64,000 nt of DNA. Origin: Corallium rubrum (taxonomy: Eukaryota > Cnidaria > Anthozoa > Scleralcyonacea > Coralliidae). A program made the position numbers and the translations under genes. The notes below the pieces were generated by a model that was not told the origin of the DNA, ran no database searches, and saw nothing but the letters and a program-made list of their open reading frames with translations. This document shows, piece after piece, positions 1,479 to 53,449 of this stretch. The stretch is from NCBI GenBank assembly GCA_964035015.1, contig OZ036006.1, positions 1,683,269 to 1,747,268 on the forward strand, read 5' to 3'. How positions within the stretch are numbered: the first letter of the stretch is position 1; every line of letters begins with the position of its first letter.

Positions 1479-2143
<665 letters not shown>

Positions 2144-2182
2144 TAATCCACTACATGGAAATTGTTTTCTTCTAAATTATAC

Positions 2183-2533
2183 CTTCAACCTTCCAAAATG
2201 TAGCCCGAAACCCTCGACCAGACAACCATGTAGTGCTTCTAAACTTTATCATCATAACTTTACCAGTCGAAACATATTCAGGTTGTCCAGAACATATTTT
2301 ACCAAGCAGAGGAGTTGTAGAGTTTGGACCATCGTAAACTTTAACATAATTGCATCGACACGCTGTGCATCTCTCCACGTGAAGGTCGTCAAATCTAAGT
2401 CTCACAAGGTAACCAGTTGTTGCTGTTATTTGCCAAGTGCACTGAAGATTTCCAGGATATTTGCTCGGATAGTTAACACTTTGTATTGTCTTCACGTTGT
2501 CTTCTGCATCTATTTGTCCGCTGCCTGGACACA
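2183..2533 (-). CDS. CUB domain exon (downstream of two)
   Basis: This internal exon encodes one CUB domain, an extracellular beta-sandwich module of about 110 residues used for protein binding in secreted and membrane proteins. The visible pattern is typical: a cysteine at the start, NLQCTWQI, the CTACRC cluster followed by NYVKVYDG, GKICSG near the end, and a terminal GFRATF strand. The exon is bounded by an acceptor AG at 2534-2535 and a donor GTATAA reading down from 2182. Its 351 bp are a multiple of three and both boundaries are phase 1. A symmetric phase 1-1 module is the classic exon-shuffling arrangement. The next exon towards the 3' end was not found in the first 2.1 kb. The parent gene cannot be named because CUB occurs in many proteins. 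Confidence 0.88.
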
Positions 2534-2635
2534 CTGATGAAAAACGAAGGAAATATATTTTATTTATACTTTTCCCAGAAGATAGACCTGCAAGCCGTTC
2601 TATTATATTTATTTACTTTTTTCAATTCTATTTTA

Positions 2636-2862
2636 TTCGATCTATTTTATTCTATTTTATTCCATTCCATTTTAGTCTATTCTACTTTCTTCCATTCCAT
2701 TTTATTCCATCCCAATCCATTTTATTCCATCCCATTCCATTTTATTCCATCCCATTCCATTTTATTCCACTCCATTCCATTTTATTCCATTCCATTCCAT
2801 TCCATTCCATTCCATTCCATTCCATTCCATTCCATTCCATTCCATTCCATTCCATCCCATCC
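2636..2862 (+). repeat. (ATTCC)n tandem array
   Basis: A pentamer array that begins degenerate, with ATTTT and ATCCC variants, and becomes pure TTCCA from about 2775. The long plus-strand open frames through it (FHSIPFHSIP...) are translations of the repeat and are not genes. Confidence 0.92.
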
Positions 2863-3032
2863 ATTGATGAAAATCATCTCGCCACAGTGGGTGGCTCGCC
2901 TCTGTATAAAAAACCCCAACCTCGTTCCCAGGGCCTTTTTGAAATTATTTACGGCATTACTCAGAATAATTTTGCATACTAAATTAAATTGCTAATTTAT
3001 TACATGAAGAATTTCTGGGTGACGAGCCGATG

Positions 3033-3543
3033 CCTGGCACTGATCTGAAAAATAGGACTGGGTCGAATTTTCTGTTGCGTCGGATGAGCTGATTTTGAAG
3101 CCAGCATATTTGCATTGACTAGAGATCATTAGAAACTGCGATTGTGCACGCAAATCAAACTGAGACAATTGTGAAATGGGTTTAGAGTCTGGCCAATATA
3201 TTTACTTTGATAACCATAAATGCCCAAAAACCTGAACTTAATTTGACGCTTCACAGTTGGCTTTTCTCACCAGATAATTAGAGCCAACGGCGGCCATATT
3301 GGAGTGACCTCATTACAAATTCAATGGCTAATCTGAGAGGAAAAGCAAAACTGACCGACATCAAATAACTGTCCAACCAATATGTCCCTTCACTAACATT
3401 AAATAGAAAATGTCAGAATACCCTCCAACATGCCTGCAACGCCACAGTAGTGTCAGGTGGTCACTCCAACATGGCCGCCGTTGGCTTCATTTTCAGTAAT
3501 ACTAACTCGATCCAGTCCTATTTTTCACGTCAGTGATGCCAGG
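3033..3543. mobile_element. MITE with imperfect inverted ends inside the CUB intron
   Basis: The left end CCTGGCACTGATCTG followed by AAAAATAGGACTGG is matched by the inverted right end at about 3507-3543. A second, internal inverted pair surrounds AGCCAACGGCGGCCAT at 3281-3309 and 3459-3487. The element is about 510 bp and has no coding potential. Confidence 0.65.
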
Positions 3544-3623
3544 GCCGTTTCCCGCCCTCTCAATTTCCAAGAGGCCCTGAGAACGTGGTCGAAAAACTCT
3601 CTAAAATGAAGCCTTGCACTCAC

Positions 3624-3989
3624 CTTCAGACTTCCTTACTGCGGCGTAGGATGCCTTAAAGCCTTTTTTAGTCCTCGAGGAATCTGATGTAAATTTGACA
3701 AACATATAGCGACCAGAAGATATTACTGATACACGAGCTACACCGCAATTTTTTCCAAGACTGGGGGCACTCGTGAATCTTCCATCCAGTAGTTCGAGCG
3801 CGTCACACCTACACCTTGTGCAGAATTCAATATCAATAAAATCCACAGTAATGTTTATTAGGTAACCCGGAGCGACCATGATTCGCCACCAGCAACTAGC
3901 GCGATTTTTATATCCTGTATTGTACTTCACTGTTCCTGTTTGTCCCGTGAAAACCTTAGGATTGAATCTGCTCGGACAGGGATCATCTT
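3624..3989 (-). CDS. CUB domain exon (upstream of two)
   Basis: This is a second CUB-domain exon of the same minus-strand gene, lying 5' of the one at 2183-2533. The translation starts EDDPCPSRFNPK and contains NRASCWWRI, the CTRCRC cluster followed by DALELLDG, GKNCG, and a closing GFKASY strand. These match the first exon and give the four CUB cysteines in order. The acceptor AG is at 3990-3991 and the donor GTGAGT begins at 3623. The exon is 366 bp, again phase 1-1, so it joins in frame to the next CUB exon. Upstream exons, including any signal peptide, were not found with confidence. Confidence 0.88.
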
Positions 3990-4937
3990 CTATATAAAGA
4001 GAGATTCGCAGTTAAGAAATTAAAGACGTTTTTCGTGTTTTTATAGAGTTATTCCCCCCTTTTGCAAATAGCGTAGTGCTTTGCGCCTTGGGGGTAAAGT
4101 AAAATCACTGAGCATGTGTACCTGTCGATTCCTCGATATTAAGCGTGATCATAATCACATAAGTCTAAATATCTCAAGAACTAAGTGAAATATGAAATAG
4201 CTGGAAATTAGTAATCTTTATTATTATATGACTATTTTCGTTGGAATCGAGCAATTTGATTGGTCCCTGAGCGATCTGGAATCTGTCGTTCCGGACCGCG
4301 CTGACAGTTGCTGACAGTGAGAATTTTATAAACATGCAAAATGAAAGTCGTGTCAGTATATGCAACAAGATGGATAATAATATATTCCAGAACTACTCAT
4401 TGTTGAAATATATCGTGCAGGTATGTTGTTAGAAATTTTGTTAAGCTTTCATTTGATGTATAGTTTAAGTTCCACGTTATGTGAAACTTTTCAAAATGTC
4501 CGAAATGTCCGTAACCTTTTTCGTAATAATATAGCATTTACTTCTCATAAGTATTATAGAATTTCAGATGTGTTTTTTTATTCAACTACTTAACGCACAG
4601 TCTTGAGCAATATGTCAAACATATAAAGGAATTAAAAAATGCTGTTAGATTTAGACAGTTCAGGATTCTAGCTAAACGTAAAGTACTTTAAAAATGGGAA
4701 AACATATGCAATTTTGGTTATGTCGCAAAAAAGATGGTGGCGAATACGAGCCTAGCACTTCGTCGAGTTTTCACAGCACGTTTACAATATTTGTAGACAT
4801 ATAATAGACTACTTTTTCACCTTGCTTGTACGGTCTGTACTACCTCGGTTCGCTGCGTTTGCTCGGTCCGTACTAAAGACGTCGGTCCGATATTTCACTA
4901 GTACAGACCTCACGCTTTCAATAAGTATTAATTATAT
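3990..4937. other. Upstream intron or flank of the CUB gene
   Basis: No exon was recognised. The minus-strand open frame at 4174-4368 has no domain. The sequence is AT-rich with no tandem array. Confidence 0.4.
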
Positions 4938-4945
4938 AATTTTAA

Positions 4946-5095
4946 CAGAGGCGTAGCCAGTAGGGGGTCCTCTGGCAAAAAAGTGCTGCCCTCCCCCGAG
5001 AAAATTTGGCTTCATAAGCCTCAGTTAAGCTGCCCCCCCTAGCTTTTTCCTGCCCCCTGCCCCCCCCTTGACAAAAAATCCTGGCTACGTCTCTG
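4946..5095. mobile_element. hAT-type MITE with 8-bp target duplication
   Basis: The 150 bp element begins CAGAGGCGTAGCCAG and ends with the inverted counterpart CTGGCTACGTCTCTG (one mismatch). It is flanked on both sides by AATTTTAA (4938-4945 and 5096-5103). Ends of CAGNGG type plus an 8-bp duplication are diagnostic of hAT-family movement. The interior is rich in CCCCCC and non-coding. Confidence 0.88.
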
Positions 5096-5117
5096 AATTT
5101 TAAGAGTTCTTTTAATC

Positions 5118-5483
5118 GACCTTTTCACAAATAGCGGCGCCATCTTGAATTCGCAATGCATTATGGTCTACCAGGGTAGCAAGCTCCATTAAAAGGGCGA
5201 TTGCGTAGTTTTGAGACACAATGCGGTAATTTTTTCTTTGTAAATACTTTCGTGTCAACAATATCTAAATATATTAATTGTCATATTGGTAAAAGCAATA
5301 ATTCTCGTACGTATAAGGATACATTTGTCATGAATCTATCCTTACACGTCCAAGAATTGTTGCTTTTACCAATATGCATTGTGTCTCAACACTACGCAAT
5401 CGCCCTTTTAATGGAGCTTGCTACCCTGGATAGACCATAATGCATTGCAAATTCAAGATGGTGCCGCTATTGGTGAAAAGGTC
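5118..5483. mobile_element. Long-TIR MITE, family with AATAGCGGCGCCATCTTG ends, copy 1
   Basis: About 110 bp at each end are inverted copies, from GACCTTTTCACAAATAGCGG on the left to its counterpart ending at 5483. The ends include GGTCTACCAGGGTAGCAAGC and GCGATTGCGTAG segments. Inside lies a second inverted pair around TATTGGTAAAAGCAA. A diverged relative lies at 47809-48150. Confidence 0.8.
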
Positions 5484-6129
5484 TATTAGGTAGAACTTAA
5501 TAATTTTCAAGGCAGATGTATTTTGAGAGAAAATGTTTAATTAACGAACCTGGTTTCTCAGTTGTCGATGCTAGCTCTACATTAAGACAATGGAAAAAAT
5601 AATAAAATAATGATTAAAACAGCTAAGAGTTGTAGAAAAAATATTTACAAATCAGACAAGGATCATTTTAATATTAAATGTTCCGTTTCCACACTTAATA
5701 TACTCCAATTACGACATTTAGAAGAATTTGAACTGGACAGACAACATGAACAAATACCAAAGTTACACCATTAACGGTCGTCATGTAAGGTCCGTTTCAA
5801 ACGTCGCACTTTTGCCGTTACCCTGCAAGTCAGAGCCCCTTTCCCACCAACGCAGGCATCGGAGGAAAGTGAGCTCTGCCTCAAAACCCCATTTCTCCCC
5901 AAGTTTGGGGCGAGTCAGTCAGATTTTGAACTGGTCAAACAAGTTGTAGCTTTTGAGCACGCGCAAGAAGGAAAATAGCAAGTAACGCGTTAGAGCCTGG
6001 GCCCAAAATAGTATCTTGGCAACCGTTCACGCAAGCTCAAAAAGAAATATCGAGTCTGTTGAGGGCCCACTTTCTCCCGAAGCCTGCATACGTCTGAAAG
6101 GGGCTCTGACTTGCAGGGTATTTTGCCGC
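5484..6129. other. Gene-free stretch
   Basis: AT-rich sequence with no recognised gene. CTGCAAGTCAGAGCCCCTTTC at 5824-5844 is mirrored by GAAAGGGGCTCTGACTTGCAG at about 6096-6116, which suggests a small inverted-repeat element of about 290 bp at 5824-6116. Confidence 0.45.
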
Positions 6130-8475
6130 GTAAATTCAATTCAACTCAACCGAATTCAGTTCAATTCAATTTAATTTAACCCAATATAATTGAATTCAAC
6201 TTAACGCACTTTATTTCACCTCAATTCAATTAAATTTTATTCAACTCAACTCAACTCATCTCAACTTATTTCAACTCAGCTCAACTCAACTCAACTCAAC
6301 TCAACTCAACTCAACTCAACTCAACTCAACTCAACTCAACTCAACTCAACTCAACTCAACTCAACTCAACTCAACTCAACTCAACTCAACTCAACTCAAC
6401 TCAACTCAACTCAACTCAACTCAACTCAACTCAACTCAACTCAACTCAACTCAACTCAACTCAACTCAACTCAACTCAACTCAATTCAACTCAAATGAAT
6501 TCAACTCAAAGTCACTTCAGTTAAGTCCAATTGAATTGAATTGAATTGAATTGAATTGAATTGAATTGAATTGAATTGAATTGAATTGAATTGAATTGAA
6601 TTGAATTGAATTGAATTGAATTGAATTGAATTGAATTGAATTGAATTGAATTGAATTGAATTGAATTGAATTGAATTGAATTGAATTGAATTCCAGTCCA
6701 GTCCAGTCCAGTCCAGTCCAGTCCAGTCCAGTCCAGTCCAGTCCAGTCCAGTCCAGTCCAGTCCAGTCCAGTCAATTCAATTCAATTCAATTCAATTCAA
6801 TTCAATTCAATTCAATTCAATTCAATTCAATTCAATTCAATTCTACTCAACTCCAACTCCAACTTCAACCCCAACTCCAACCTTCAAACCCAACCTTCAA
6901 ATTCAATTTCAACCTTCAGACTTCAACTTCGACCTGCGACCTTCAAATTCAACCATCAAACTTCAACCTTCAACTTCAACCTTCAACCTTCAACCTTCAA
7001 CCTTCAACCTTCAACCTTCAACCTTCAACCTTCAACCTTCAACCTTCAACCTTCAACCTTCAACCTTCAACCTTCAACCTTCAACCTTCAACCTTCAACC
7101 TTCAACCTTCAACCTTCAACCTTCAACCTTCAACCTTCAACCTTCAACCTTCAAATTCAATTTCAACCTTCATCCTGCAACCTTCAAACTTCAACTTCGA
7201 CTTCAACCTTTAATCTTCAACCTTCAACTTCAACCTTCAACCTTGTAACTTTCAATTTCAATTTCAATTTCAATTTCAATTTCAAGTTCAATTTCAATTT
7301 CAATTTCAATTTCAATTTCAATTTCAATTTCAATTTCAATTTCAATTTCAATTTCAATTTCAATTTCAATTTCAATTTCAATTTCAATTTCAATTTCAAT
7401 TTCAATTTCAATTTCAATTTCAATTTCAATTTCAATTTCAATTTCAATTTCAATTTCAATTTCAATTTCAATTTCAATTTCAATTTCAATTTCAATTTCA
7501 ATTTCAATTTCAATTTCAATTTCAATTTCAATTTCAATTTCAATTTCAATTTCAATTTCAATTTCAATTTCAATTTCAATTTCAATTTCAATTTCAATTT
7601 CAATTTCAATTTCAATTTCAATTTCAATTTCAATTTCAATTTCAATTTCAATTTCAATTTCAATTTCAATTTCAATTTCAATTTCAATTTCAATTTCAAT
7701 TTCAATTTCAATTTCAATTTCAATTTCAATCCCAATTTCAATTTCAATTTCAATTTCAATTTCAATTTCAATTTCAATTTCAATTTCAATTTCAATTTCA
7801 ATTTCAATTTCAATTTCAATTTCAATTTCAATTTCAATTTCAATTTCAATTTCAATTTCAATTTCAATTTCAATTTCAATTTCAATTTCAATTTCAATTT
7901 CAATTTCAATTTCAATTTCAATTTCAATTTCAATTTCAATTTCAATTTCAATTTCAATTTCAATTTCAATTTCAATTTCAATTTCAATTTCAATTTCAAT
8001 TTCAATTTCAATTTCAATTTCAATTTCAGCTTCAATCCAATTTCAATGCAATCCAATTCAGTTAAACTCAACTCAATTTCAACTCAACTTAAACCAATTC
8101 AATTTAACTAAGTTCAACTAACTCAACTCAACTCAACTCAACTCAACTCAACTCAACTCAACTCAACTCAACTCAACTCAACTCAACTCAACTCAATTTA
8201 TATTTCATTCAATTCAATTCAATTCAATTCAATTCAATTCAATTCAATTCAATTCAATTCAATTTAATTTAATTCAATTCAATTCAATTCAATTCAATTC
8301 AATTCAATTCAATTCAATTCAATTCAATTTAATTTAATTTAATTCAATTCAATTCAATTCAATTCAATTCAATTCAATTCAATTCAATTCAATTCAATTC
8401 AATTCAATTCAATTCAATTCAATTCAATTCAATTCAATTCAATTCAATTCAATTCAATTCAACTCAATTCAAGTT
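6130..8475. repeat. Composite simple-repeat island, eight consecutive arrays
   Basis: Arrays follow one another almost without spacer: AACTC (about 6240-6485), AATTG (6526-6690), CAGTC (6692-6772), AATTC (6773-6842), the 7-mer CAACCTT (about 6966-7152), the 6-mer TTTCAA (about 7248-8027, roughly 130 copies), AACTC again (8117-8195) and AATTC again (8206-8462). Nearly all contain TCAA or CAA on the plus strand, so related seeds seem to have expanded separately. The long open frames here (LKLKLK, IQFNS, STFNLQP) are repeat translations. Confidence 0.95.
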
Positions 8476-19632: not shown

Positions 19633-21070
19633 AATTGCATGGTACAACATTGAATTGAAATGAATCGAATTGAATCGAATATTGAATTAAATCGAATAAA
19701 ATCCAATTGCATTAAATTGAATTAAACTGAATTAAACCGAATTAAATTGAAGCTGCACGAATAGAATTGAAATGAAGCTAAATCAAATTGAATTGAAGCT
19801 AAATTAAATTGAATTGGAGCTAAATTGAATGGAAGATAAATTTAATTTAATTGAAGGTAAATTGAAATGAAGCTAAAATAAATTTAATTGAAGGTAAATT
19901 AAATTGAACTGAAGATAAATTAAATCAAATTGAATTAAAACTAAATCAAATTGAATTGAAGCTAAATTAAATTGAATTAAAGCTAAATTGAATTGAATTG
20001 AATTGAATTGAATTGAATTGAATTGAATTGAATTGAATTGAATTGAATTGAATTGAATTGAATTGAATTGAATTGAATTGAATTGAATTGAATTGAATTG
20101 AATTGAATTGAATTGAATTGAATTGAATTGAATTGAAGCTAAATTGAATTGAATTGAATTGAATTGAATTAAAGCTAAATTGAATTGAATTGAATTGAAT
20201 TGAATTGAATTGAATTGAATTGAATTGAATTGAATTGAATTGAATTGAATGGAATTGAATTGAATTGAATTGAATTGAATTGAGTTGAATTGAATTGAAT
20301 TGAATTGAATTGAATTGAATTGAATTGAATTGAATTGAATTGAATTGAATTGAATTGAATTGAATTGAATTGAAGTGAAGTGAATTGAATTGAAATGAAT
20401 TGAATTGCATGGTACAACATTGAATTGAAATGAATCGAATTGAATCGAATATTGAATTAAATCGTTTAAAATAAAGTTGCATTAAAGTGAATTAAATTGA
20501 ATTAAACCGAATTAAATTGAAGCTGCACGAATAGAATTGAATTGAAGCTAAATCAAATTGAATTGAAGCTAAATTAAATTGAATTGGAGCTAAATTGAAT
20601 GGAAGATAAATTGAATTTAATTGAAGGTAAATTGAAATGAAGCTAAAATAAATTTAATTGAAGGTAAATTAAATTGAACTGAAGATAAATTAAATCAAAT
20701 TGAATTAAAGCTAAATCAAATTGAATTGAAGCTAAATTAAATTGAATTAAAGCTAAATTGAATTGAATTGAATTGAATTGAATTGAATTGAATTGAATTG
20801 AATTGAATTGAATTCAATTCAATTGAATTGAATTCAATTGAATTGAATTGAAGCTAAATTGAATTGAATTGAATTGAATTGAATTGAATCAAACCTAAAT
20901 TGAATTGAATTGAATTGAATTGAATTGAATTGAATTGAATTGAATTGAATTGAATTGAATTGAATTGAATTGAATTGAATTGAATTGAATTGAATTGAAT
21001 TGAATTGAATTGAATTGAATTGAATTGAATTGAATTGAATTGAATTGAATTGAATTGAATTGAATTGAAT
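19633..21070 (+). repeat. Higher-order repeat of GAATT arrays and GAAGCTAAATT blocks
   Basis: A block starting GAATTGCATGGTACAACATTG at 19633 and continuing through GAAGCTGCACGAATAGAATTG to about 19985 recurs at 20402-20755, so the period is about 770 bp. Between and after the blocks are pure GAATT arrays (19986-20136, 20176-20390, 20756-20870, 20886-21070). The same block occurs once at 45940-46300. Confidence 0.9.
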
Positions 21071-21741
21071 ATGGCAAGCCGATTGTAGCAAAATTCAACG
21101 ACACTTTTTTATAAAGTATTAAAATTCAATTCAATGCTTATTCAGTGCTTCAATTCAATGAACATATTCAATTCAATGCTTATTCAGTGCTTCAATTCAA
21201 TGAACATATTCAATTCAATGCTTATTCAATGATTCAATTCAATGAACATATTCAATTCAATGCTTATTCAATGATTCAATTCAATGAACATTTTCAATTC
21301 AATGCTTATTCAATGATTCAATTCAATGAACATTTTCAATTCAATGCTTATTCAATGATTCAATTCAATGAACATTTTCAATTCAATGCTTATTCAATGA
21401 TTCAATTCAATGAACATTTTCAATTCAATGCTTATTCAATGATTCAATTCAATGAACATATTCAATTCAATGCTTATTCAATGATTCAATTCAATGAACA
21501 TTTTCAATTCAATGCTTATTCAATGATTCAATTCAATGAACATATTCAATTCAATGCTTATTCAATGATTCAATTCAATGAACATATTCAATTCAATGCT
21601 TATTCAATGATTCAATTCAATGAACATATTCAATTCAATGCTTATTCAATGATTCAATTCAATGAACATATTCAATTCAATGCTTATTCAATGATTCAAT
21701 TCAATACATATATTCAATTCAATTCAATGCTTATTCAATGA
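21071..21741 (+). repeat. 42-bp tandem repeat with unique leader, copy 1
   Basis: The leader ATGGCAAGCCGATTGTAGC at 21070-21088 and following bases precede about 14 copies of a 42-bp unit built from ATTCAATTCAATGAACAT plus a 24-bp half containing GCTTATTCAATG. Because 42 is a multiple of three, a 14-residue periodic open frame spans the array. It has no flanking coding sequence. An inverted relative lies at 45275-45898. Confidence 0.93.
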
Positions 21742-22920: not shown

Positions 22921-24476
22921 GGTGAAACTTTGTCGAATTTTTGCCAAGTCAGCATAATATCGTCCTGGTCTCGAGTTTGTGTAAACAAAATATTTCTAGT
23001 AATTATGCTTGTTGCTGAGCCTGAGCGGCCCGGGATGTTTTCATGAGAAGGTCTTATTGTAGTTCTGAACTACAATAATATTCCTAGACAATTACTGTTG
23101 TAGCTTTCTAGCAGTCTGAATTAAAAAGACGCGCCGGCCGGCGGTAACCGCACGAACACTTGGCAATAAAATAAACAAGACTGTCAATACACATGGTAGT
23201 AGTGATACCCCCCACTCCAGACTACAAAGGGATGCCGCCTCATTAAATATTCAATTTTTAATTATTCATTCTCATGCTCCTTTGCGACCCTCTAACCCTA
23301 ATCTCGTTACGTAATTATGTTTCGTGCTCCTATATGACCCCCTAACCCTAATCTCACTCAACCCTCCCGGTTTTCACTACGTCATACCGACTTATTATTT
23401 ATTCATTCTCAGACTCCTTTGGGACGTAGTAACCCTAACTTTCCCCCCTAACCCTAGCTGTCACTCAACCCCCCTGGTATTCACTACGTCATTCCCGATT
23501 GGTCTCCGACTGATTTCCGAAGTTACGTAAAAGGCACTGGACTTATCTCTTTATAACTAATAGAAACCAACTTTCATTTAAACCCTTAACCCTACTTATA
23601 GCCAACACTTGTGGGACACGTATACGTACAGAGCATGCGTACAGTAAACTTTAACAAAATAGACGTTCTTTACAAGGAACTAAAGAGAAATTGATAGAGG
23701 CACTTTATATTTTTTTATCTGAAACCTTGTCTCGATGAGTATAGAGAGTTTTGAGCAGCCGAAGTGTCTGAATTGGCTGAGCTCGTATGGACTTAAATCA
23801 ATAGCATATGATGAATATTATATTAGGTTTAGAGCCTAAACATTCAATCATCCTAGAATCATTGCTAGCTAAACCCTTCGTTTGTAAGTGAAGGAATCGT
23901 AAGAAGATAGAATGAGGAGTCAATTCTAAAAGCCATAAGAACGTTTTTAAGTGTCGATATATAAACGAAATATTATTTGGCTGCGGGACGGCTGAGTATC
24001 GACTTGAATTAATAGCAACATGAATATTATATTAGTTAGAACTTAAACGGCCAAACAGCTCTTTACCCATTTACTTGGAGATATGTGCCGAATTGTCGCT
24101 TATTTGGCTTTAGTTTATAAGTAAACGATGCCTTGAATGAAGAAATCGTTCGGCAAACTGTTCGAAAGACATTGAATCATTTTCTTCAGAGGGGTTTGCC
24201 AGAATATAAACTGTCAAGGGTTAAACGGCTGACTCGGCTATTTTTTTAACGTCGTCAAGCATCTTGTTAATGTTGCTACGGCTGATATTTGCGTATTTAT
24301 GCTCAGTGCAGGTGCAGGAGACAAAAGAGAAAACTCATTAAAGTTACTAATGACCAAAACATAACCGGATTTGCATATAAGTAGAATATTTAATTCATTT
24401 TAGGGGTGATCATGAGTTTTTTGGGAATAATAAGGGGCCTGAAGAGGTATTAATATATGGACAAGTTTAGGCGAAA

Positions 24477-24770
24477 AAGTTAGTCTTAGGACTATAGTCT
24501 TAGTTTTAGGACTATATAGTCTTAGTTTTAGCACTATATAGTCTTAGTCTTAGCACTATATAGTCTTAGTATTAGGACTATAGTCTTAGTCTTAGGAATA
24601 TATAGTCTTAGTCTTAGGACTATATAGTCTTAGTTTTAGGACTATAGTCTTAGTCTTACGGACTATAGTCTTAGTCTTTGTCTTAGTCTTAGGACTATAG
24701 TCTTAGTCTTAGGACTATAGTCTTAGTCTTAGGACTATATACTCTTTGGACTATATAGTCTTAGTCTTAT
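24477..24770 (+). repeat. TAGTCTTAGTCTTAGGACTATA array, left arm
   Basis: Variants of a roughly 17-22 bp unit made of TAGTCTTAGTC and the self-complementary core GACTATAGTC or CTATATAG. The mirrored array is at about 27890-28185. Confidence 0.88.
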
Positions 24771-24774
24771 AATC

Positions 24775-24930
24775 ACCGCAGGGGTAATCCCCAAACACCC
24801 CCGGGGTACCCCAATCACCCCTGGGGTAACCCCAAACACCCCGGGGTAACCCCCAAACACCCCTGGGGTACCCCAATCAACCCAGGGGTACCCCAATCAC
24901 CCCAGGGATACCCACAAACACCCCTGTCGT
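24775..24930 (+). repeat. GGGGTAACCCC/GGGGTACCCC array, left arm
   Basis: Units of about 20 bp with palindromic cores, separated by AAACACC or AATCACC. The array ends at the unique stretch TGTCGTGACACTTTTTACA. The mirrored array is at about 27725-27885. Confidence 0.88.
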
Positions 24931-24959
24931 GACACTTTTTACATTTTGTCACGGAAGAA

Positions 24960-25372
24960 CAGCCAGGACTCGGAGCTGGAAGCCGAAGGCTCGGAGCCAG
25001 GAGCCAAGGGCTCGGAGCTAGGAGCCGAGGGCTCGGAGCCAGGAGCCGGGGACTCGGAGCCAGGAGCCGGCGGCTCGGAGCCAGGAGCCGTGGGGCTCGG
25101 AGCCAGGAGCCAAGGGCTCGGAGCCAGGAGCCGGAGGCTCGGAGCCAGGAGCCGGGGGCTCGGAGCCAGGAGACGGGGGCTCGGGGCCAGGAGCCGGGGC
25201 TCGGAGCTAGGAGCCGGGGGCTTGGAGCCAGGAGACGGGGGCTCGGAGCCAGGAGCCGGGGGCTCGGAGCCAGGAGCCAAGGGCTCGGAGCCAGGAGCTG
25301 GGGGCTCGGAGCCATGAGCCGGGGCCTCGGAGCCGGGAGCCAAGGGCTCGGAGCTCGCAGCCGAGAGTTCGG
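24960..25372 (+). repeat. GGCTCGGAGCCAGGAGCC array, left arm
   Basis: GC-rich 18-20 bp units, standing out in an AT-rich region. The mirrored array is at about 27262-27708. Open frames on both strands (GSEPGA, LLAPSPR) are translations of the repeat. Confidence 0.9.
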
Positions 25373-26290
25373 AGTCTTATCTTCCTTATCTTCCTCTTAT
25401 CTTCCCATTATCTTCCTTGTCTTCCTCTTATCTTCCCCTTATCTTCCCATTATCTTCCTTATTTTCCTCTTATCTTCCCATTATCTTCCTTTATCTTCCC
25501 ATTATCTTCCTTATCTTCCTCTTATCTTCCTCTTATCTTCCCCTTATCTTCCCCTTATCTTCCCATTATCTTCCTTTATCTTCCTCTTATCTTCCCCTTA
25601 TCTTCCCCTTATCTTCCCCTTATCTTCCCCTTATCTTCCCCTTATCTTCATCTTATCTTCCTTATCTTCCCCTTATCTTCCCATTATCTTCCTTATCTTC
25701 CTCTTATCTTCATCTTATCTTCCTTATCTTCCCCTTATCTTCCCCTTATCTTCCCCTTAGCTTCCTTATTTTCCTCTTATCTTCCCCTTATCTTCCCATT
25801 ATCTTCCCATTATCTTCCTCTTATCTTCATCTTATCTTCCTTATCTTCCCCTTATCTTCCTCTTATCTTCATCTTATCTTCCTTATCTTCCCTTTATCTT
25901 CCCATTATCTTCCTTATCTTCCTATTATCTTCATCTTATCTTCCTTATCTTCCCCTTATCTTCCCATTATCTTCATCTTATCTTCCTTATCTTCCCCTTA
26001 TCTTCCCATTATCTTCCTTATCTTCCTCTTATCTTCATCTTATCTTCCTTATCTTCCCCTTATCTTCCCATTATCTTCCTTATCTTCCTTATCTTCCTCT
26101 TATCTTCATCTTATCTTCCTTAACTTCCCATTATCTTCCTTATCTTCCTCTTATCTTCCCCTTATCTTCCCATTATCTTACCATAGTCTTCCTTTATCTT
26201 CCTATCTTCCCCTTATCTTCCCCTTAACTTCCCTTTACCTTTCTTATCTTCCCTTTATCTCTTTTTATCTTCCTTATATTCCCCTTATCT
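25373..26290 (+). repeat. CTTATCTTCC array, left arm
   Basis: About 0.9 kb of 10-11 bp units with a strongly pyrimidine-rich plus strand. The right arm (about 26352-27258) is the purine-rich mirror. The order of unit variants differs between arms, showing independent turnover after the palindrome formed. The frames reading LSSSYLPLIF are artefacts. Confidence 0.92.
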
Positions 26291-26293
26291 TCT

Positions 26294-26352
26294 CATAAGA
26301 TTGATTCAATCCTAGGATACAATTATTCAATCTTATAAGAATCAATCTTATG
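26294..26352. repeat. Centre of the giant palindrome
   Basis: CATAAGATTGATTC at 26294-26307 pairs with its inverse at 26339-26352. The spacer contains CCTAGG and a further TTCAATCTTATAA segment. Confidence 0.85.
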
Positions 26353-28449
26353 GGAAGATAAGTGGAATATAAGGAAGATAAGAAGGAGATAAAGGGAAGA
26401 TAAGAAAGGTAAAGGGAAGATAAGGGGAAGATAAAGGGAAGATAGGAAGATAAAGGAAGACTATGGTAAGATAAGGGGAAGATAAGGGGAAGATAAGAGG
26501 AAGTTAAGGAAGATAATGGGAAGATAAGGAAGATAAGATGAAGATAAGAGGAAGATAAGGAAGATAAGGAAGATAATGGGAAGATAAGGGGAAGATAAGG
26601 AAGATAAGATGAAGATAAGAGGAAGATAAGGAAGATAATGGGAAGATAAGGGGAAGATAAGGAAGATAAGATGAAGATAATGGGAAGATAAGGGGAAGAT
26701 AAGGAAGATAAGATGAAGATAATAGGAAGATAAGGAAGATAATGGGAAGATAAAGGGAAGATAAGGAAGAGAAGATGAAGATAAGAGGAAGATAAGGGGA
26801 AGATAAGGAAGATAAGATGAAGATAAGAGGAAGATAATGGGAAGATAATGGGAAGATAAGGGGAAGATAAGAGGAAAATAAGGAAGATAAGGGGAAGATA
26901 AGGGGAAGATAAGGGGAAGATAAGGAAGATAAGATGAAGATAAGAGGAAGATAAGGAAGATAATGGGAAGATAAGGGGAAGATAAGGAAGATAAGATGAA
27001 GATAAGGGGAAGATAAGGGGAAGATAAGGGGAAGATAAGGGGAAGATAAGAGGAAGATAAAGGAAGATAATGGGAAGATAAGGGGAAGATAAGGGGAAGA
27101 TAAGAGGAAGATAAGAGGAAGATAAGGAAGATAATGGGAAGATAAAGGAAGATAATGGGAAGATAAGAGGAAAATAAGGAAGATAATGGGAAGATAAGGG
27201 GAAGATAAGAGGAAGACAAGGAAGATAATGGGAAGATAAGAGGAAGATAAGGAAGATAAGACTCCGAACTCTCGGCTGCGAGCTCCGAGCCCTTGGCTCC
27301 CGGCTCCGAGGCCCCGGCTCATGGCTCCGAGCCCCCCAGCTCCTGGCTCCGAGCCCTTGGCTCCTGGCTCCGAGCCCCCCGGCTCCTGGCTCCGAGCCCC
27401 CGTCTCCTGGCTCCGAGCCCCCGGCTCCTAGCTCCGAGCCCCCGGCTCCTAGCTCCGAGCCCCCGGCTCCTGGCTCCGAGCCCCCGGCTCCTGGCTCCGA
27501 GCCCCCGGCTCCTGGCTCCGAGCCTCCGGCTCCTGGCTCCGAGCCCTTGGCTCCTGGCTCCGAGCCCCACGGCTCCTGGCTCCGAGCCGCCGGCTCCTGG
27601 CTCCGAGTCCCCGGCTCCTGGCTCCGAGCCCTCGGCTCCTAGCTCCGAGCCCTTGGCTCCTGGCTCCGAGCCATCGGCTTCCAGCTCCGAGTCCTGGCTG
27701 TTCTTCCGTGACAAAATGTAAAAAGTGTCACGACAGGGGTGTTTGTGGGTATCCCTGGGGTGATTGGGGTACCCCTGGGTTGATTGGGGTACCCCAGGGG
27801 TGTTTGGGGGTTACCCCCGGGGTGTTTGGGGTTACCCCAGGGGTGATTGGGGTACCCCGGGGGTGTTTGGGGATTACCCCTGCGGTGATTATAAGACTAA
27901 GACTATATAGTCCAAAGAGTATATAGTCCTAAGACTAAGACTATAGTCCTAAGACTAAGACTATAGTCCTAAGACTAAGACAAAGACTAAGACTATAGTC
28001 CGTAAGACTAAGACTATAGTCCTAAAACTAAGACTATATAGTCCTAAGACTAAGACTATATATTCCTAAGACTAAGACTATAGTCCTAATACTAAGACTA
28101 TATAGTGCTAAGACTAAGACTATATAGTGCTAAAACTAAGACTATATAGTCCTAAAACTAAGACTATAGTCCTAAGACTAACTTTTTCGCCTAAACTTGT
28201 CCATATATTAATACCTCTTCAGGCCCCTTATTATTCCCAAAAAACTCATGATCACCCCTAAAATGAATTAAATATTCTACTTATATGCAAATCCGGTTAT
28301 GTTTTGGTCATTAGTAACTTTAATGAGTTTTCTCTTTTGTCTCCTGCACGTGCACTGAGCATAAATACGCAAATATCAGCCGTAGCAACATTAACAAGAT
28401 GCTTGACGACGTTAAAAAAATAGCCGAGTCAGCCGTTTAACCCTTGACA

Positions 28450-28595
28450 GTTTATATTCTGGCAAACCCCTCTGAAGAAAATGATTCAATGTCTTTCGAA
28501 CAGCTTGCCGAACGGTTTCTCGGTTTATATTCTGGCAAACCCCTCTGAAGAAAATGATTCAATGTCTTTCGAACAGTTTGCCGAACGATTTCTTC
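28450..28595. repeat. 73-bp tandem duplication private to the right arm
   Basis: GTTTATATTCTGGCAAACCC starts at 28450 and again at 28523. The matching left-arm region near 24140-24225 has it once. The second right-arm copy is closer to the left-arm sequence. Confidence 0.88.
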
Positions 28596-29542
28596 ATTCA
28601 AGGCATCGTTTACTTATAAACTAAAGCCAAATAAGCGACAATTCGGCACATATCTCCAAGTAAATGGGTAAAGAGCTGTTTGGCCGTTTAAGTTCTAACT
28701 AATATAATATTCATGTTGCTATTAATTCAAGTCGATACTCAGCCGTCCCGCAGCCAAATAATATTTCGTTTATATATCGACACTTAAAAACGTTCTTATG
28801 GCTTTTAGAATTGACTCCTCATTCTATCTTCTTACGATTTCTTCACTTACAAACGAAGGGTTTAGCTAGCAATGATTCTAGGATGATTGAATGTTTAGGC
28901 TCTAAACCTAATATAATATTCATCATGTGCTATTGATTTAAGTCCATACGAGCTCAGCCAATTCAGACACTTCGGCTGCTCAAAACTCTCTATACTCATC
29001 GAGACAAGGTTTCAGATAAAAAAATATAAAGTGCCTCTATCAATTTCTCTTTAGTTCCTTGTAAAGAACGTCTATTTTGTTAAAGTTTACTGTACGCATG
29101 CTCTGTACGTATACGTGTCCCACAAGTGTTGGCTATAAGTAGGGTTAAGGGTTTAAATGAAAGTTGGTTTCTATTAGTTATAAAGAGATAAGTCCAGTGC
29201 CTTTTACGTAACTTCGGAAATCAGTCGGAGACCAATCGGGAATGACGTAGTGAATACCAGGGGGGTTGAGTGACAGCTAGGGTTAGGGGGGAAAGTTAGG
29301 GTTACTACGTCCCAAAGGAGTCTGAGAATGAATAAATAATAAGTCGGTATGACGTAGTGAAAACCGGGAGGGTTGAGTGAGATTAGGGTTAGGGGGTCAT
29401 ATAGGAGCACGAAACATAATTACGTAACGAGATTAGGGTTAGAGGGTCGCAAAGGAGCATGAGAATGAATAATTAAAAATTGAATATTTAATGAGGCGGC
29501 ATCCCTTTGTAGTCTGGAGTGGGGGGTATCACTACTCATGGT

Positions 29543-42966: not shown

Positions 42967-44517
42967 TCAGGTTCTTAAGAGCTGTTGCTGTTCTACCCTT
43001 TCTTTAATAACCTGACGGATCATGCAATAAACATCTATGCCCATCTCAGTTGATTGCATCAAAGGATTTGTAACATCTAGTACATGGTCATGAACTGACT
43101 GAGTATCCATAGGTAAGGCTATAGGAGGAACAATAACATTGTTACTACTATCTTGAAAAGGGGTTGGTGCTTCTGGGTCTAAACCATAGAAATCAGGCTC
43201 AACTTCATCATCCAGCTGTCCATGTGCAAGTGGATTATCGATGTTAACCATCCCATTGAGCCAGATCTGGTATGGAGACCAGTTGTGTTCTGTTCTTAGG
43301 CCATGGTGATTGAAGGTTTCCATGAATTCCAAAAGAGCTAGGTTAATTCTGGGTAAGAATGTGGTGTGTAGTGCAAATAAATCAATAGGATTTTCAATGT
43401 TGAGAAGACCAGCATCTTCCATACCATAAAATATATAATAATATAAGTGATTAACACATCGAAATACATCCCTCCAAAGACGCTCTATCCTCTGATTTCG
43501 TGTGGACGAGCCAGCTATAAAACTCCCTCTTCCTTCCCCTCTAGCAGCCACCATGGCATCACATACCAGTACATTTTCCACACCATAGTCCACTCGGATG
43601 CGAGATGGCCAAAGCCCATTATCTTGATCAATGGCACTTAAAAAAAGATCTAGAACAGTCTGTGATAAGTTATTGTCACTGCACTTCAAGTATATGATTC
43701 TTCTTGAAAAACCATCTATACAACCATGAATAACCATACCCCAGCGAATCAGTGAATGGTGACCATCTAAGTGCCACAATGAGTTAGGCCATGGAACAGA
43801 ATATTTTCTTCGATTAACAACACAACCCCACCTTAATGTAGTATTTTTGGGGTCAACTCTAACTAGGCTTTCACGAATCCGTCGTCGTTGAATTCGCAGT
43901 CCAAGTGACCTGAAATAACCAGCAATATAAGTTTGTCCAGTTGCTGAACCATGGTGACTAATGTAATTCTTAATTATATCGTCCAGTTCTGCATCTGACA
44001 GCGAGCTGAAAGTCGTCATATCTTGTAAACCATAGCTTTGAACCCTTCTGTAGATTGTCCACCTTGAAACACCAAACATTTGCGCTATTTTTGTCCACGT
44101 AAAACCAAGTCCACGTAGATCTTCCAATGTTTCAGCTGTTATGTGAAAGGGTGGTCTGCCAGGTGTCCCTCTCCTGTCTACGTCAGACTGTCCGTTTGTG
44201 ACAGTTGATGGCTTCTGAAGTAGGTTTCTCAACTGCTCATATATAGCAATATAGACGTGGGAAAATCCACTAACAAGACATTCCCACTCATGCTTATCTT
44301 CGTTAGGCACTAGATTATCAGCAATCGACCTCAGCATATTGACAGTCCTATCTAGCACTTCGAAATGAATCTCCAGATCGTTAGCGCCTGTCCTGGTTGC
44401 TTCGTCCGATAATTCAACTGTCCTTTTAAGGACTGATTCCAGAAACTCTGGTAACATATTTTCTATGTCATATTCCTGATAATCTCCATCCATGTTTGTT
44501 TCCCGAGTTGCCGCCAT
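42967..44517 (-). CDS. DDE integrase (transposase-like), single exon
   Basis: This intact 516-residue protein belongs to a retroviral-integrase-fold family known from cnidarian and fish genomes as integrase core domain proteins. Residues 1-100 are an acidic helical leader. Residues 120-165 form a helix-turn-helix (GRPPFHITAETL, then LGFTWTKIAQMFGVSRWTIYRRV), presumably for DNA binding. The catalytic core is residues 240-425, with WHLDGHH (D251), RVDYGVEN (D310) and RIERLWRDVF (E345), giving a D-58-D-34-E spacing. NHLYYYIF and ENPIDLFALHTTFLPRI follow, as in the family. The tail, from about 430, is acidic and variable. The start context AAAATGGCGGC also matches a YY1-like initiator often found at transposon promoters. 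There are no introns and no disruptions. It is convergent with the HECT gene. Confidence 0.88.
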   Translation of the reverse strand: MAATRETNMDGDYQEYDIENMLPEFLESVLKRTVELSDEATRTGANDLEIHFEVLDRTVNMLRSIADNLVPNEDKHEWECLVSGFSHVYIAIYEQLRNLLQKPSTVTNGQSDVDRRGTPGRPPFHITAETLEDLRGLGFTWTKIAQMFGVSRWTIYRRVQSYGLQDMTTFSSLSDAELDDIIKNYISHHGSATGQTYIAGYFRSLGLRIQRRRIRESLVRVDPKNTTLRWGCVVNRRKYSVPWPNSLWHLDGHHSLIRWGMVIHGCIDGFSRRIIYLKCSDNNLSQTVLDLFLSAIDQDNGLWPSRIRVDYGVENVLVCDAMVAARGEGRGSFIAGSSTRNQRIERLWRDVFRCVNHLYYYIFYGMEDAGLLNIENPIDLFALHTTFLPRINLALLEFMETFNHHGLRTEHNWSPYQIWLNGMVNIDNPLAHGQLDDEVEPDFYGLDPEAPTPFQDSSNNVIVPPIALPMDTQSVHDHVLDVTNPLMQSTEMGIDVYCMIRQVIKERVEQQQLLRT

Positions 44518-45274
44518 TTTGCTGACTTTCAGGGTATTGCGCGCGCATCGTTTTGCAAAGAAATTGGCGGGCTCTTGGCGGGCTTCCCCCGTCGGGGAAA
44601 ATTAACAGATTTGTCGGGGAATGATCTGGAAGAAAAATTGTATTTTTAACAATTGGCAAAGAACTTTTTAACTGATTAAGTCAGACAAGTCAGTAATTAA
44701 TGCTTTAACAGTGAAATAAAACTCTTAGAAACACAGGATACGGTATATATTGTGTAGAAGCCAACAGTATCAATAATTACAACGCACAAAATTCCATTTT
44801 CTGTCTGCAATATTGAACGAAAATGGCAAAGGTTAATGACCACACTAGGTGTTCAACAAATTTTTCTTTATTAATAGCATGAAAATAGGTGCTGTAGCTT
44901 GTCGGTTATTGCGATAATTTTACGCGAAGATGGAAAAAGCTATTCTAGACGTTCATATTTTGAAACTTTTCCGGGGACGCATGCCCCCGGAACCCCTTAG
45001 TAGCCCCCCTGTCGGGGACCTTAGCCCTGTGTCGTGGAATTTCTGGCGCCATCCCTGAGTAACAACAGCAGAATAACAGTATTAAACATCCAGAAACTGT
45101 ATCTATACTTTGTTTAGTTTAAACAGTATGTTTACTTTGAGTGGAGCTTGCCAGTTTTTTAAAAAATGATGCACGCGCAACACCCTGAATCTCGCCTATA
45201 CACGCCCAGTGTCATCTCAAAATGCCTTTTGCCACTGACCGTTAAGTGTTGCATTTGCTTTGAATGGTGTTTTG
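44518..45274. other. Upstream region of the integrase gene
   Basis: No gene was recognised. CCGTCGGGGAAAATTAACAG at about 44590 and CCCCTGTCGGGGACC at about 45006 may be parts of a transposon end, but no matching inverted end was found beyond the HECT gene. Confidence 0.35.
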
Positions 45275-45898
45275 AAATGATTGAATAAGCATTGAATTGA
45301 ATATGTTCATTGAATTGAATCATTGAATAAGCATTGAATTGAACATATGTATTGAATTGAAGCATTGAATAGGCATTGAACTGTTAAATATATTGAATTG
45401 AATCATTGAATAAGCATTGAATTGAAAATGTTCATTGAATTGAATCATTGAATAAGCATTGAATTGAAAATGTTCATTGAATTGAATCATTGAATAAGCA
45501 TTGAATTGAAAATGTTCATTGAATTGAATCATTGAATAAGCATTGAATTGAATATGTTCATTGAATTGAATCATTGAATAAGCATTGAATTGAATATGTT
45601 CATTGTATTGAATCATTGAATAAGCATTGAATTGAATATGTTCATTGAATTGAATCATTGAATAAGCATTGAATTGAATATGTTCATTGAATTGAATCAT
45701 TGAATAAGCATTGAATTGAATATGTTCATTGAATTGAATCATTGAATAAGCATTGAATTGAATATGTTCATTGAATTGAAGCACTGAATAAGCATTGAAT
45801 TGAATATGTTCATTGAATTGAAGCACTGAATAAGCATTGAATTGAATTTTAATACTTTATAAAAAGGTGTCGTTGAATTTTGCTACAATCGGCTTGCC
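45275..45898 (-). repeat. 42-bp tandem repeat with unique leader, copy 2 (inverted)
   Basis: About 12-13 units of the same 42-bp repeat as at 21121-21741, on the opposite strand. The leader GCTACAATCGGCTTGCCAT at 45881-45899 is the inverse of the leader at 21070-21088. Confidence 0.92.
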
Positions 45899-46600
45899 AT
45901 AATTGAATTGAAGTGAAGTGAATTGAATTGAAATGAATTGAATTGCATGGTACAACATTGAGTTGAAATGAATCGAATTGAATCGAATATTGAATTAAAT
46001 CGTTTAAAATAAAGTTGCATTAAATTGAATTAAATTGAATTAAACCGAATTAAATTGAAGCTGCACGAATAGAATTGAATTGAAGCTAAATTAAATTGAA
46101 TTGGAGCTAAATCGAATTGAAGATCAATTGAATTTAATTGAGGTAAATTGAAATGAAGCTAAAATAAATTTAATTGAAGGTAAATTAAATTGAACTGAAG
46201 ATAAATTAAATTAAATTGAATTAAAGCTAAATCAAATTGAATTGAAGCTAAATTAAATTGAATTAAAGATAAATTGAATTGAATTGGATTGAATTGAATT
46301 GAGGCTAAATTAAATTGAAGTGAAGTGAAGTGAAGTGAAGTGAATTGAATTGAATTGAATCGAATCGAATCGAATTGAATTGAATTGAATTGAATTGAAT
46401 TGAATTGAATTGAATTAAAGCTAAATCGAATTGAATTGAATTGAATTAAAGCTAAATTGAATTGAATTGAATTGAATTGAATTGAATTGAGGCTAAATTA
46501 AATTGAATTGAATTGAAGTGAAGCTAAATTGAACTGAATTGAATTGAATTCAATTGAATCAAATGAAATTGAATTGAATCGAACCTTGATTTCCCCATAA
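45899..46600 (+). repeat. GAATT/GAAGCTAAATT block, second locus
   Basis: GAATTGCATGGTACAACATTG at about 45940 and the following 350 bp match 19633-19985 and 20402-20755 in direct orientation, whereas the adjoining 42-bp array is inverted. It continues into GAAGTG and GAATT runs. After it, CGTTATATGCAGAATTGCA at about 46648 matches the flank at 19284. Confidence 0.88.
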
Positions 46601-50537: not shown

Positions 50538-53449
50538 CTCGAACTGCTATCTTTTGAAACAAATTGAACCTACAGAGGGATACGACACAATGAATAATCT
50601 AATCACGAGTTCAAAATTAAATGTTCATTATCTGCGAGTTTTTTAACTTTTTCGTAATGTTTTTAGAATCCGATAGAGTTCAATTAAAAATTTAATATTT
50701 GTTTCGAATTCTTATACATCAAAGTGCATTATATATAAACTTATACTTGCATGCAAACACATACAGTAACGAGGGTGGCTAAAGCCAGTTCAAGTGTCTT
50801 GTTCTCTTACAAAAAGAAATTTCATTGTTAACCACTATATCCTCCTGACATTTGAAAATAATTACTTTAATTCGCCTATGGATTTTGTATAATAACCACT
50901 GTCTTCCTTTGAGCACCTTCATACAATTAAAGTTCATAAGAAAAAAATAATTTTGCCTTATTTGAAAGAACACTTAAAATGACAAAGTAACATATTTTGC
51001 AGTTTTTCGTTTCCTTGCTTCGTTGAGATATTTCACATATTGTGACGACTAGTTATATATCTTTGCTATTATAAAATAAAATCACTTGAATTTCTGCATG
51101 TTTGCATGGTGCAGGGTGGGATACACACGAACGCCTCTTTCGAGTTAAGTTTAGTTTGATAATAGCAAAGATATGTAATCTTCTACGATAAGTCATTATG
51201 CACATGTACCTCACAACATGTTACACTTGTATATCAAACAAATTGAACGATCCCAATAACGAAGCAAGGAAACCAAAAACTGCAAAATATTTTACTTTGT
51301 CATTTTAAGTATTCTTTCGAATAAGACAACCTTAATTTTCAAGTCACATAGGCACTTTAAGGTGCAATTTGGATTAATGTAATTTATAGTATTAGAAAAT
51401 TAGACGAGTAGACATTGTTTAGGTACGTCATATGAGAATTCCAAGAATAGAAAAACCATTTCTCAGTAACGCTATAATTGCATATTTTAGATTAATAATC
51501 CCACGAATTCGTTATTCAATCATGCACATGGACTGAATAAGAGTGGAACAATTGGTTATAAGAAAATAGCACAGAAAATCAGAAGTTAAAAGGGAAAATT
51601 GCGAAGTTCAGCCAATAGACTTTTTGCATGACTCCCGTCATTTCCATAACGAAAGTGAAAGCAATTCTGTTAATCTATTGGTAACTGGAGTAAGCTACAG
51701 AACAACTCATTTGGTGAAACGTAAAAATGTTCGAAAAGAAAAGACAGTTGGCTATTATACAGTTCCATAACTCCTTAACACTTTCACTCGCATTGTTGTG
51801 GAACAAATTTATCTTTTTACTCTGTGTAACGCCAGCGATTTCGTCGTCAATGAGAGACGTATTGGAAAGCCATACACGAAAGGGTTTACTTGATGGGGGC
51901 AGGTGATGTATAGGACGTGATCGATTTACGAACGACATCCCTAAGTTTTCTATATGGCTATGGGTATCATTAATCCATGTACAAGCACATATGTCCAAAA
52001 TGCCGGTAGATACAGCAGTTCATACAGCAGTTCAAACATAATCGAAATCAAGTCGTTAAAACGGTGTTCTTACACATGAGGCTCCACAATAGGCTTTGTA
52101 AGCACCGCGAAGGGCGCTCGATATTTACTATCTTTCCCGTATTCCGACGAGTTTGGTTAGCTGATCTAATGCTGACCAACGTCTTTTTAGAAATCCCAAA
52201 TCCCGTTTTTCGATCTCATTTCCCGAATCGGCACGACAGCGAAAGTTTCTAGATCGCGTTTCTCTTCCTATAGATGCATTACAATTTACATAAGATGAGT
52301 CAAGACAAAGAATCAAATGAACAGTTCTTACCTTAAAGATTACCTTTATTCTGAATTTTCAGCCTTTCGAACGTTCCTTGCTTCGAATGAATACTGAATT
52401 TAACTATGACGAACAGCTGTAATGATGTCTTATATACCCTCCCAAAAAGGATACGTAATTGCGTAAGGGAATCCCTCGTGTCCTACAATGTGACGAGCTT
52501 TCAAAAGTTATCCATCAACATGGCCATATATGGAAATGTTTATATATTTTCACAACCAACCAATAGTATATTTAGTCAGCAATTTCCAAAGATTAATTAT
52601 TCCATGTGTTTGGAGAAAACGCAGCTGATTTCTCTATTTACAAAGCATGCATTTATATGCAACAGGGAATTTCCCAACACATATATAATAAGGGACTACC
52701 CCGTTAAATTAGTTGTGATAAGCTCTAAAAAAATAGGACACCCGTTACATATAGCCTGCAATTTTCAAACATTTTTGATATGTTTTTGTACGACTGATTT
52801 CTCTATTCACAAAGTATATATTAGCATTTCTTTGCGACAGGAAATTTGCTCTTTCATACTGTGTAAGGGGAACCCATCTTGTCCTCTTTGATGCGATGAG
52901 CTTTCAAAAATCAGCAGCCAAAATGGCCATATATGCATGGAAATGTTTATCACGATTTTGTTAAAAAAATGGCGGTTTATTTATCATTAAAATGAAAACA
53001 TCGACTTTTTCAGTTGTTGGGCGAACGTGCCTAGATTTCCCAGTATTTCACAGCCAACCAAAAATATATTTAGTCTACAATTTTAACAGATTATTTATTT
53101 CATGGGTTTGGAGAGGACAGATGGAGACATATCTCTCTATTTTCAAAGCATGTATTTATTAATTTTATTTGGGACGGGGAATTTCCCTACACATATATAA
53201 GAAGGGACGGCACCGTTATATTTGTTGTGATGAGCTCCAAAAATCAAGACATCCGTTGCAGTAGGAAAGTTCAAAGTGAAAACACGTTATTAAACACAAC
53301 ACAAAACAATTTAGTGTCTGAGAAAGTTATAATTGATGAAGCAGAGTGTTGAGAGAGAAAACATTGGTTATAATCAACAGAGTGAGAAAACATTGGTTAT
53401 AATCAAGAAATGGCAGTCACAGTGAGACACCTGAAGTCTGCTTCTCAGC
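50538..53449. other. Upstream region of the two-repeat LEA-like gene
   Basis: About 2.9 kb without a convincing gene. The plus-strand frame at 52406-52891 has a partial counterpart at 57129-57392, but the counterpart is truncated and the DNA between is non-coding. A TATATACCCTCCC-type segment near 52430 could be a promoter on either strand. Confidence 0.35.

Follow-up and report, generated by a model that had tools for sequence, protein, structure and literature searches.

A stretch of 64,000 nucleotides (nt) from the anthozoan Corallium rubrum (GenBank assembly GCA_964035015.1, contig OZ036006.1, positions 1,683,269 to 1,747,268 of the forward strand; its whole length is referred to below as the window) contains a near-perfect palindrome of 6339 bp, at 23198-29536, with an exact CATGGT on either side. 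We consider this element to be, probably, a Polinton/Maverick derivative that is palindromic, non-autonomous and of copy-back type, formed by fold-back during replication.

The palindrome, its family and its target sites

The sequence AGTAGTGATACCCC and its reverse complement lie directly inside the CATGGT copies, and beyond the duplications the left and right flanks differ. A sequence-only reading of the window had taken this to mean that the element inserted as a unit, and the 6-bp duplications found at its relatives agree with it. The outer arms (23198-24211 and 28523-29536) are 100% complementary over 1014 nt, and more matched blocks follow further inward. Of the two arms of about 3.1 kb described in that reading, the palindrome itself stands, but the arms are slightly unequal (3110 nt on the left, 3198 nt on the right) around a central loop of 31 nt. 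A 73-bp unit is present once in the left arm and twice in the right (28450-28593), and it is present twice in both arms of the five other copies of the window's kind that were read. The features of the element are as follows.

23192-23197, left target-site duplication, CATGGT
23198-26307, + strand, left arm, 3110 nt, starting with AGTAGT
23198-24479, + strand, outer part of the left arm, free of arrays
24480-24769, + strand, array A, 22-bp unit, left arm (mirror at 27892-28181)
24774-24926, + strand, array B, 20-bp unit, left arm (mirror at 27734-27890)
24969-25354, + strand, array C, 21-bp unit, left arm (mirror at 27282-27691)
25376-26296, + strand, array D, 11-bp unit, left arm (mirror at 26352-27261)
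26308-26338, + strand, asymmetric 31-nt loop on the axis; the 30-mer from 26309 has 27 genome copies
26339-29536, - strand, right arm, 3198 nt, closing with ACTACT
28182-29536, - strand, right-arm counterpart of that outer part, including two 73-bp units at 28450-28593
29537-29542, right target-site duplication, CATGGT

The description of four tandem arrays per arm, in mirrored order and with no gene, also proved accurate. Every stop-to-stop frame of at least 120 amino acids (aa) inside the element overlaps the arrays, and the frames inspected are of low complexity. When the two ATPases and two further proteins encoded by relatives were compared with the window, there were zero matches, and no PolB or integrase gene was detected in the element, whose long frames fall in arrays (the array frames were not run against Pfam). 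The telomere-like motif AACCCTA occurs five times in the outer 400 nt of the arm (23294-23594) and 12 times in the whole window, counting both strands.

The element belongs to a real mobile family. A search of the genome (474,352,983 bases in 312 contigs) with the outer 1.2 kb of the arm, one of the checks proposed with the sequence-only reading, gave at least 87 matches (best 40 of 2018 candidates scored). The terminal 16-mer AGTAGTRATACCCCCC has 347 copies per strand (694 in total, against 0 and 0 for the reversed control) and the 30-mer from the loop has 27 (control 0), and on these counts a chance origin of the palindrome and its ends was rejected. The first 100 places of the 16-mer lie on contig C1, where they make up 43 inward-facing pairs that span 4976-15877 bp (median 7397), with 14 ends left unpaired. 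Local comparisons omit loci L001-L008, which are the same places as later loci; the BLAST comparison of the arms covers the outer-arm query, with matches up to 60 nt dropped, and BLAST of axes and junctions had matches under 25 nt dropped.

Duplications at other copies, a second of these checks, are present. Among same-ended elements with both flanks read, an exact 6-bp duplication was found in 21 of 22, and the remaining one, C18, matches at 5 of 6 positions. The exact cases comprise the full set of 15 elements, the window's included, whose two ends lie within a single fetched locus, together with C30, L035/L036 and all four further C1 elements picked from the list of ends for their spread of sizes. 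A PolB-bearing palindrome whose ends are the variant AGTAGATAACC is bordered on each side by TATATT and provides the 22nd exact hexamer. All 22 hexamers are distinct (0 of 462 cross pairs alike), and they show a dyad preference: position 3 is a pyrimidine in 19 of 22 (p 4e-4) and position 4 a purine in 21 (p 5e-6), and A occupies position 2 in 14 (p 0.002) and T position 5 in 12 (p 0.02). The preferred target thus has a pyrimidine-purine step at the midpoint of the duplicated hexamer.

Polinton ends and gene-bearing relatives

To our knowledge, the protein-primed replication of Polintons is mostly deduced from their genes. Excerpts of a study of vertebrate Mavericks (PMC8097293) give (AGT)2//(ACT)2 as the commonest ends, report intact elements with 6-bp duplications and lengths of 12.7-24.6 kb, and connect the repetition of that motif with the step of protein-primed replication known as jumping back. 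The window element has termini that fit the same motif (23198-23203 and 29531-29536) and has the 6-bp duplication, and its same-ended relatives carry PolB, ATPase and integrase; it differs in being without a detectable gene, in its 6.3 kb and in having one end doubled. Its terminal inverted repeats are the whole arms, and those of same-ended elements that are not palindromic are 261-791 nt at 88-98% identity (three elements) and 515 nt at 77% (a fourth).

Also found were longer relatives in which genes lie between these same ends, a further object of the proposed checks. One of 10.1 kb (C1:40167060-40177171) encodes PolB (DNA_pol_B_2, E 1.8e-42) and pieces of an ATPase, and another (C1:6874550-6889266) encodes PolB, a Pox_A32-type ATPase (5.1e-6) and an integrase with rve (7.8e-15) and chromodomain (6.1e-12) matches. 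Across the relatives, Pox_A32 lies above the cut-off in L020 (1.8e-5) and L045 (5.1e-6) and below it in L010 (4.1e-4) and L035 (0.0059). With 43 of 1079 candidates scored, the PolB of the 10.1-kb element has at least 49 genome matches; these place PolB in at least 5 of the 43 C1 pairs, all of 10.1-14.7 kb, and, among the matches listed, in none of the 21 C1 pairs of up to 7 kb. Because the window element has no detectable PolB, though same-ended relatives do, it is best described as a derivative and not as an autonomous member. The sequence-only reading had inferred a non-autonomous Polinton/Maverick derivative, without a mechanism for the palindrome, and the end motif, the duplications and the gene-bearing same-ended relatives bear that out; the Polinton link of the palindrome is supported.

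Other searches of these proteins gave less. A phmmer comparison of the same PolB with solved structures had no match at E 0.01, and the ATPase searched against viral contigs gave 13 pattern matches and zero relatives. A genome-wide search with the PF00665 integrase (150 of 2916 candidates scored) placed no C1 match inside the 43 pairs, by eye, and is uninformative because the integrase of C1:6874550 is itself missing from its matches, which we take to be dominated by retrotransposons. Relatives of the integrase reach up to 83% identity (78% for P0124 of the octocoral Paramuricea clavata, the source of the closest named ones), and the named relatives of the ATPase, at 45-53%, come from the coral Oculina patagonica; both point to a host that is probably anthozoan. 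By eye, open reading frames in L045/L046 resemble those for protease, core, penton and capsid proteins, a likeness for which Pfam gave no supporting match.

The arm of the window element can be aligned to the ATPase-side end of the 10.1-kb Polinton (L035) at arm positions 1-295 (88%), 141-800 (86%) and 1086-1143 (93%), the last of which ends, going inward, about 110 nt short of the ATPase frame. Since both ends of the Polinton share the terminal repeat, assignment to the ATPase side rests on 141-800 and 1086-1143. By these alignments, the window element appears to be one Polinton end, that of the ATPase side, repeated as a self-complementary palindrome. Two frames were seen at the other Polinton end: a GRF zinc-finger frame in L017 (925-1617, 5.5e-20) and, in L036 (4347-4703, - strand), a frame of 119 aa with weak E1B-19K and Bcl-2 matches (E 0.0096 and 0.036, below the cut-off).

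Kinds of palindrome and the fold-back junction

Several kinds of palindrome can be distinguished. The window's kind has its loop 30-mer at 27 places, of which six were read (the window element and L011-L015), and because this exact loop recurs 27 times, the kind spreads as a unit. Axis placement was poor for C1a, C8a and C281, and the loop of C1a (L013) was located by exact match. Another kind has a 69-nt loop, identical in L017, L018 and L032. A third carries a 454-aa ATPase in both arms: with the best 93 of 2144 candidates considered, there are 16 inverted pairs, all 16 reading outward ('-+'), and 31 of the 45 matches of at least 970 bits lie in pairs, against one of the other 48. The 14 high-scoring singles include L020, L023 and L025, palindromes in which the second arm has a frameshift near codon 148 (L020 has another near codon 62). 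As this one-arm frameshift is common to three copies, the ATPase-bearing kind has been copied whole. The elements C30 and C18 have a second type of ATPase (277 aa, about 42% identical) and a further open reading frame, and their centres differ. PolB inverted pairs form a further kind, with at least four seen by eye in one search and at least two in another; the pair at C20:2.81 Mb has arms 98.6% alike over 1.7 kb (its ends alone were read). Finally, C1:33510784-33520643 has arms 99.8% alike over the outer 1400 nt (the outer parts were read). Loop counts and the shared frameshift favor propagation as a unit over re-formation each time; the differences between loops, in C18 as compared with C30 and in L047 as compared with L048, favor more than one origin or turnover of the axis.

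Three of these copies showed other features. L024 (408-9900) is a composite palindrome whose subterminal arm unit of about 1.5 kb has three copies on the left side and two or more on the right. One arm of L032 contains a reverse-transcriptase frame (1613-4316; RVT_1, 2.4e-11, with weak GIY-YIG matches, 0.026 and 0.069) that we take to be a Penelope-like insertion, and in L028 a 1108-aa frame (3682-7005, - strand), similar to those of long interspersed nuclear elements (RVT_1, 2.4e-31, with endonuclease), adjoins a palindromic arm.

A record of how such a palindrome may form comes from C18. Its inner arm and 47-nt loop, 178 nt in all, are colinear with the Polinton C1:6874550 (L046:1389-1566) at 97%, and the sequence then reverses, with 117 nt at 98% to L046 1505-1389; the axis falls inside a Polinton gene. 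In the unrearranged Polinton, AAATAAAACTGTGT is followed 47 nt on by an inverted partner that is alike at 13 of 14 positions, with a longest exact stretch of 8 nt; in C18 the partner is now exactly complementary. The C18 turn is the sole 13-of-14 inverted pair at 20-100 nt spacing in L046 (3000 nt), with 0 in L045 (4000 nt) and 0 in ten Markov controls of L046. This single junction has the form expected of a remnant of copying back from a folded strand.

The axis of the window element may have a comparable setting. Its loop and flank resemble a repeat of about 21 bp between ATPase and PolB in L035 (16 BLAST rows, 80-94%, 30-50 nt), which weakly suggests that the axis lies just past an ATPase gene since lost. 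Remnants of the ATPase persist in L016 (residues 359-454 in both arms, with array B adjoining) and L028 (residues 383-454, in the arm read), and these two are possible intermediates of that loss. From the end toward the axis, the arrays run A, B, C, D in the window's kind and A, B and then a short A on the axis in C8a, C1d and C20; the array nearest the axis is B in C79, C8b and C1c and A in C82. Arrays may thus have been gained at the axis over time.

The ATPase itself was under purifying selection. In L047, and likewise in L048, the ATPases of the two arms show 0 differences over 1362 nt; between these elements 40 nt differ, with a ratio of nonsynonymous to synonymous substitution (dN/dS) of 0.21, and dN/dS is 0.17-0.24 in all between-element comparisons with L047 or L048. 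Neutral substitution would leave about 17% of such frames open after 40 changes. The ATPases of C1c, C8b and C79 differ by 1-7 nt, and their dN/dS values of 0, 0.35 and 0.53 are little informative. Such selection acted either in the palindromes or in their parents.

Origin of the palindromes

A scheme that would connect these observations begins with a strand of a replicating Polinton that folds back on a short inverted repeat and copies itself to its own terminus. The product would be self-complementary, with the ATPase-side end as each of its two termini, and, having retained the ends needed for replication and integration, could be copied by the PolB of a helper Polinton and inserted by a Polinton integrase with a 6-bp duplication. 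The window's kind then spread in palindromic form, with at least 27 copies that share one loop; it has no detectable gene, and its arms are filled by four arrays. We propose that the fold-back took place during protein-primed extrachromosomal replication and that the window's lineage arose in the same way as C18. Copy-back with replication and integration in trans would explain why a single parental end is present, why the termini are exact and bordered by duplications, why the C18 loop is colinear with its parent and why several kinds exist.

An alternative that we consider unlikely, though likelier than the others, is that an inverted duplication was made in the chromosome, by template switching or break repair in an integrated Polinton, and was later mobilized while gene conversion homogenized its arms. 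Close inverted repeats can be homogenized by conversion, and over the outer 1000 nt the two arms of any one copy have an identity of 0.993-1.000. Ten of 16 palindromes have arms that are closer to each other than the left arm is to the left arm of any other copy; the six exceptions are of the window's kind, in which the copies hardly differ among themselves. The ATPases of L047 and L048, invariant within each element yet 40 nt apart, fit this origin too, and the C18 fold-back could equally occur in a chromosome. However, a chromosomal duplication would at first include host flank, and all 15 copies stop at the terminal motif with an exact duplication; moreover, the one-arm frameshift shared by three copies shows that conversion has been incomplete.

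The remaining explanations fare worse. It is improbable that two Polinton copies were inserted or recombined head to head with loss of the middle: composite copies exist (L017 and L024), but independent copies are not expected to have arms this alike, or to give a loop like that of C18, which is colinear with a single parent and lies between the two halves of an inverted repeat of that parent. Membership in an unrelated superfamily of DNA transposons is very improbable, since, although 6-bp duplications are known elsewhere, the ends here are the Maverick motif and same-ended elements carry PolB, a Pox_A32-type ATPase and an integrase with chromodomain. We give equally little credence to an assembly artefact: long palindromes are hard to assemble, but the asymmetric loop has 27 exact copies at different places, the duplicated hexamers are 22 distinct ones, and the arms are unequal.

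Several observations weigh against the copy-back origin proposed here. Extrachromosomal molecules and a working helper are part of the scheme and neither was observed, and a chromosomal fold-back followed by mobilization could yield the same product. The junction comes from C18 and not from the window, whose loop matches a Polinton minisatellite over at most 34 nt at 94%; the order of genes in the C18 arm differs from that of the Polinton compared, which therefore need not be its true parent; and in C30, which has the same genes as C18, the axis is weak (72% symmetry) and no C18-like junction was found. The window arm also matches the other Polinton end, at 1-245 (77%), 1006-1100 (82%) and 1124-1283 (86%). 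In the window's kind, side-specific differences are weakly kept, with a mean cost of 44 for same-side comparisons, 51 for opposite sides and 43 within a copy; the right arms of C1a and C28 differ by 6, and the two arms within these copies differ by 110 and 63. Lastly, of five C1 elements chosen by their end motif or by PolB, a single one has a palindromic outer 1400 nt and the other four are non-palindromic, so that palindromes are one class among several.

Analogues, significance and neighboring features

Copy-back defective interfering genomes of RNA viruses are self-complementary and have one parental end at both ends, but they are RNA and not heritable in host chromosomes. A hairpin plasmid that Kikuchi reportedly described in 1985 is said to be a perfect-hairpin derivative of a protein-primed linear plasmid (of the yeast linear killer plasmids), neither integrated nor part of a dispersed family. 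Adeno-associated virus (AAV) is a parvovirus with hairpin-primed replication and without PolB. Its snapback subgenomes, as presented in portions of PMC8235507, are double-stranded fold-back defective genomes that derive from one side of the parent, 5' or 3'. They are the nearest analogue that we have seen, and among the palindromes described here some likewise carry the ATPase side and others PolB; on the same portions of that source, they differ in being packaged subgenomes, whereas the palindromes are inherited insertions with duplications.

No palindromic, defective or copy-back Polinton was found among the papers listed in searches of an open-license full-text library, which leaves most subscription papers outside, and the stem 'palindrom' is absent from the main text of PMC8097293 and PMC10120064. 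According to an extract of PMC7805220, Polintons had yet to be detected in an extracellular form. Palindromes with junctions traceable to short inverted repeats in parental genes would record Polinton replication in host chromosomes. More tentatively, palindromic Polintons may be stable, heritable, self-complementary copy-back satellite lineages that parasitize or assist Polintons, one of which retains nothing but an intact packaging ATPase, in two copies and under purifying selection, as a minimal satellite with its own packaging motor, and their junctions may be fossils of errors in protein-primed replication. If the ATPase-only lineage is selected, Polintons would have satellites of their own, comparable to AAV snapback genomes.

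Elsewhere in the window, inverted copies of a 42-bp tandem array (21070-21579 and 45392-45901; 510 nt, 98%), 23.8 kb apart, flank the element. A 544-aa open frame on the - strand (42970-44601), separate from the palindrome, has an integrase core domain (rva_4, E 9.9e-74), and a CUB domain frame (3604-4011, - strand, E 6.5e-20) is probably an exon of a host gene. Two further arrays, at 53446-53923 and 57976-58407, have one 18-bp unit in common.

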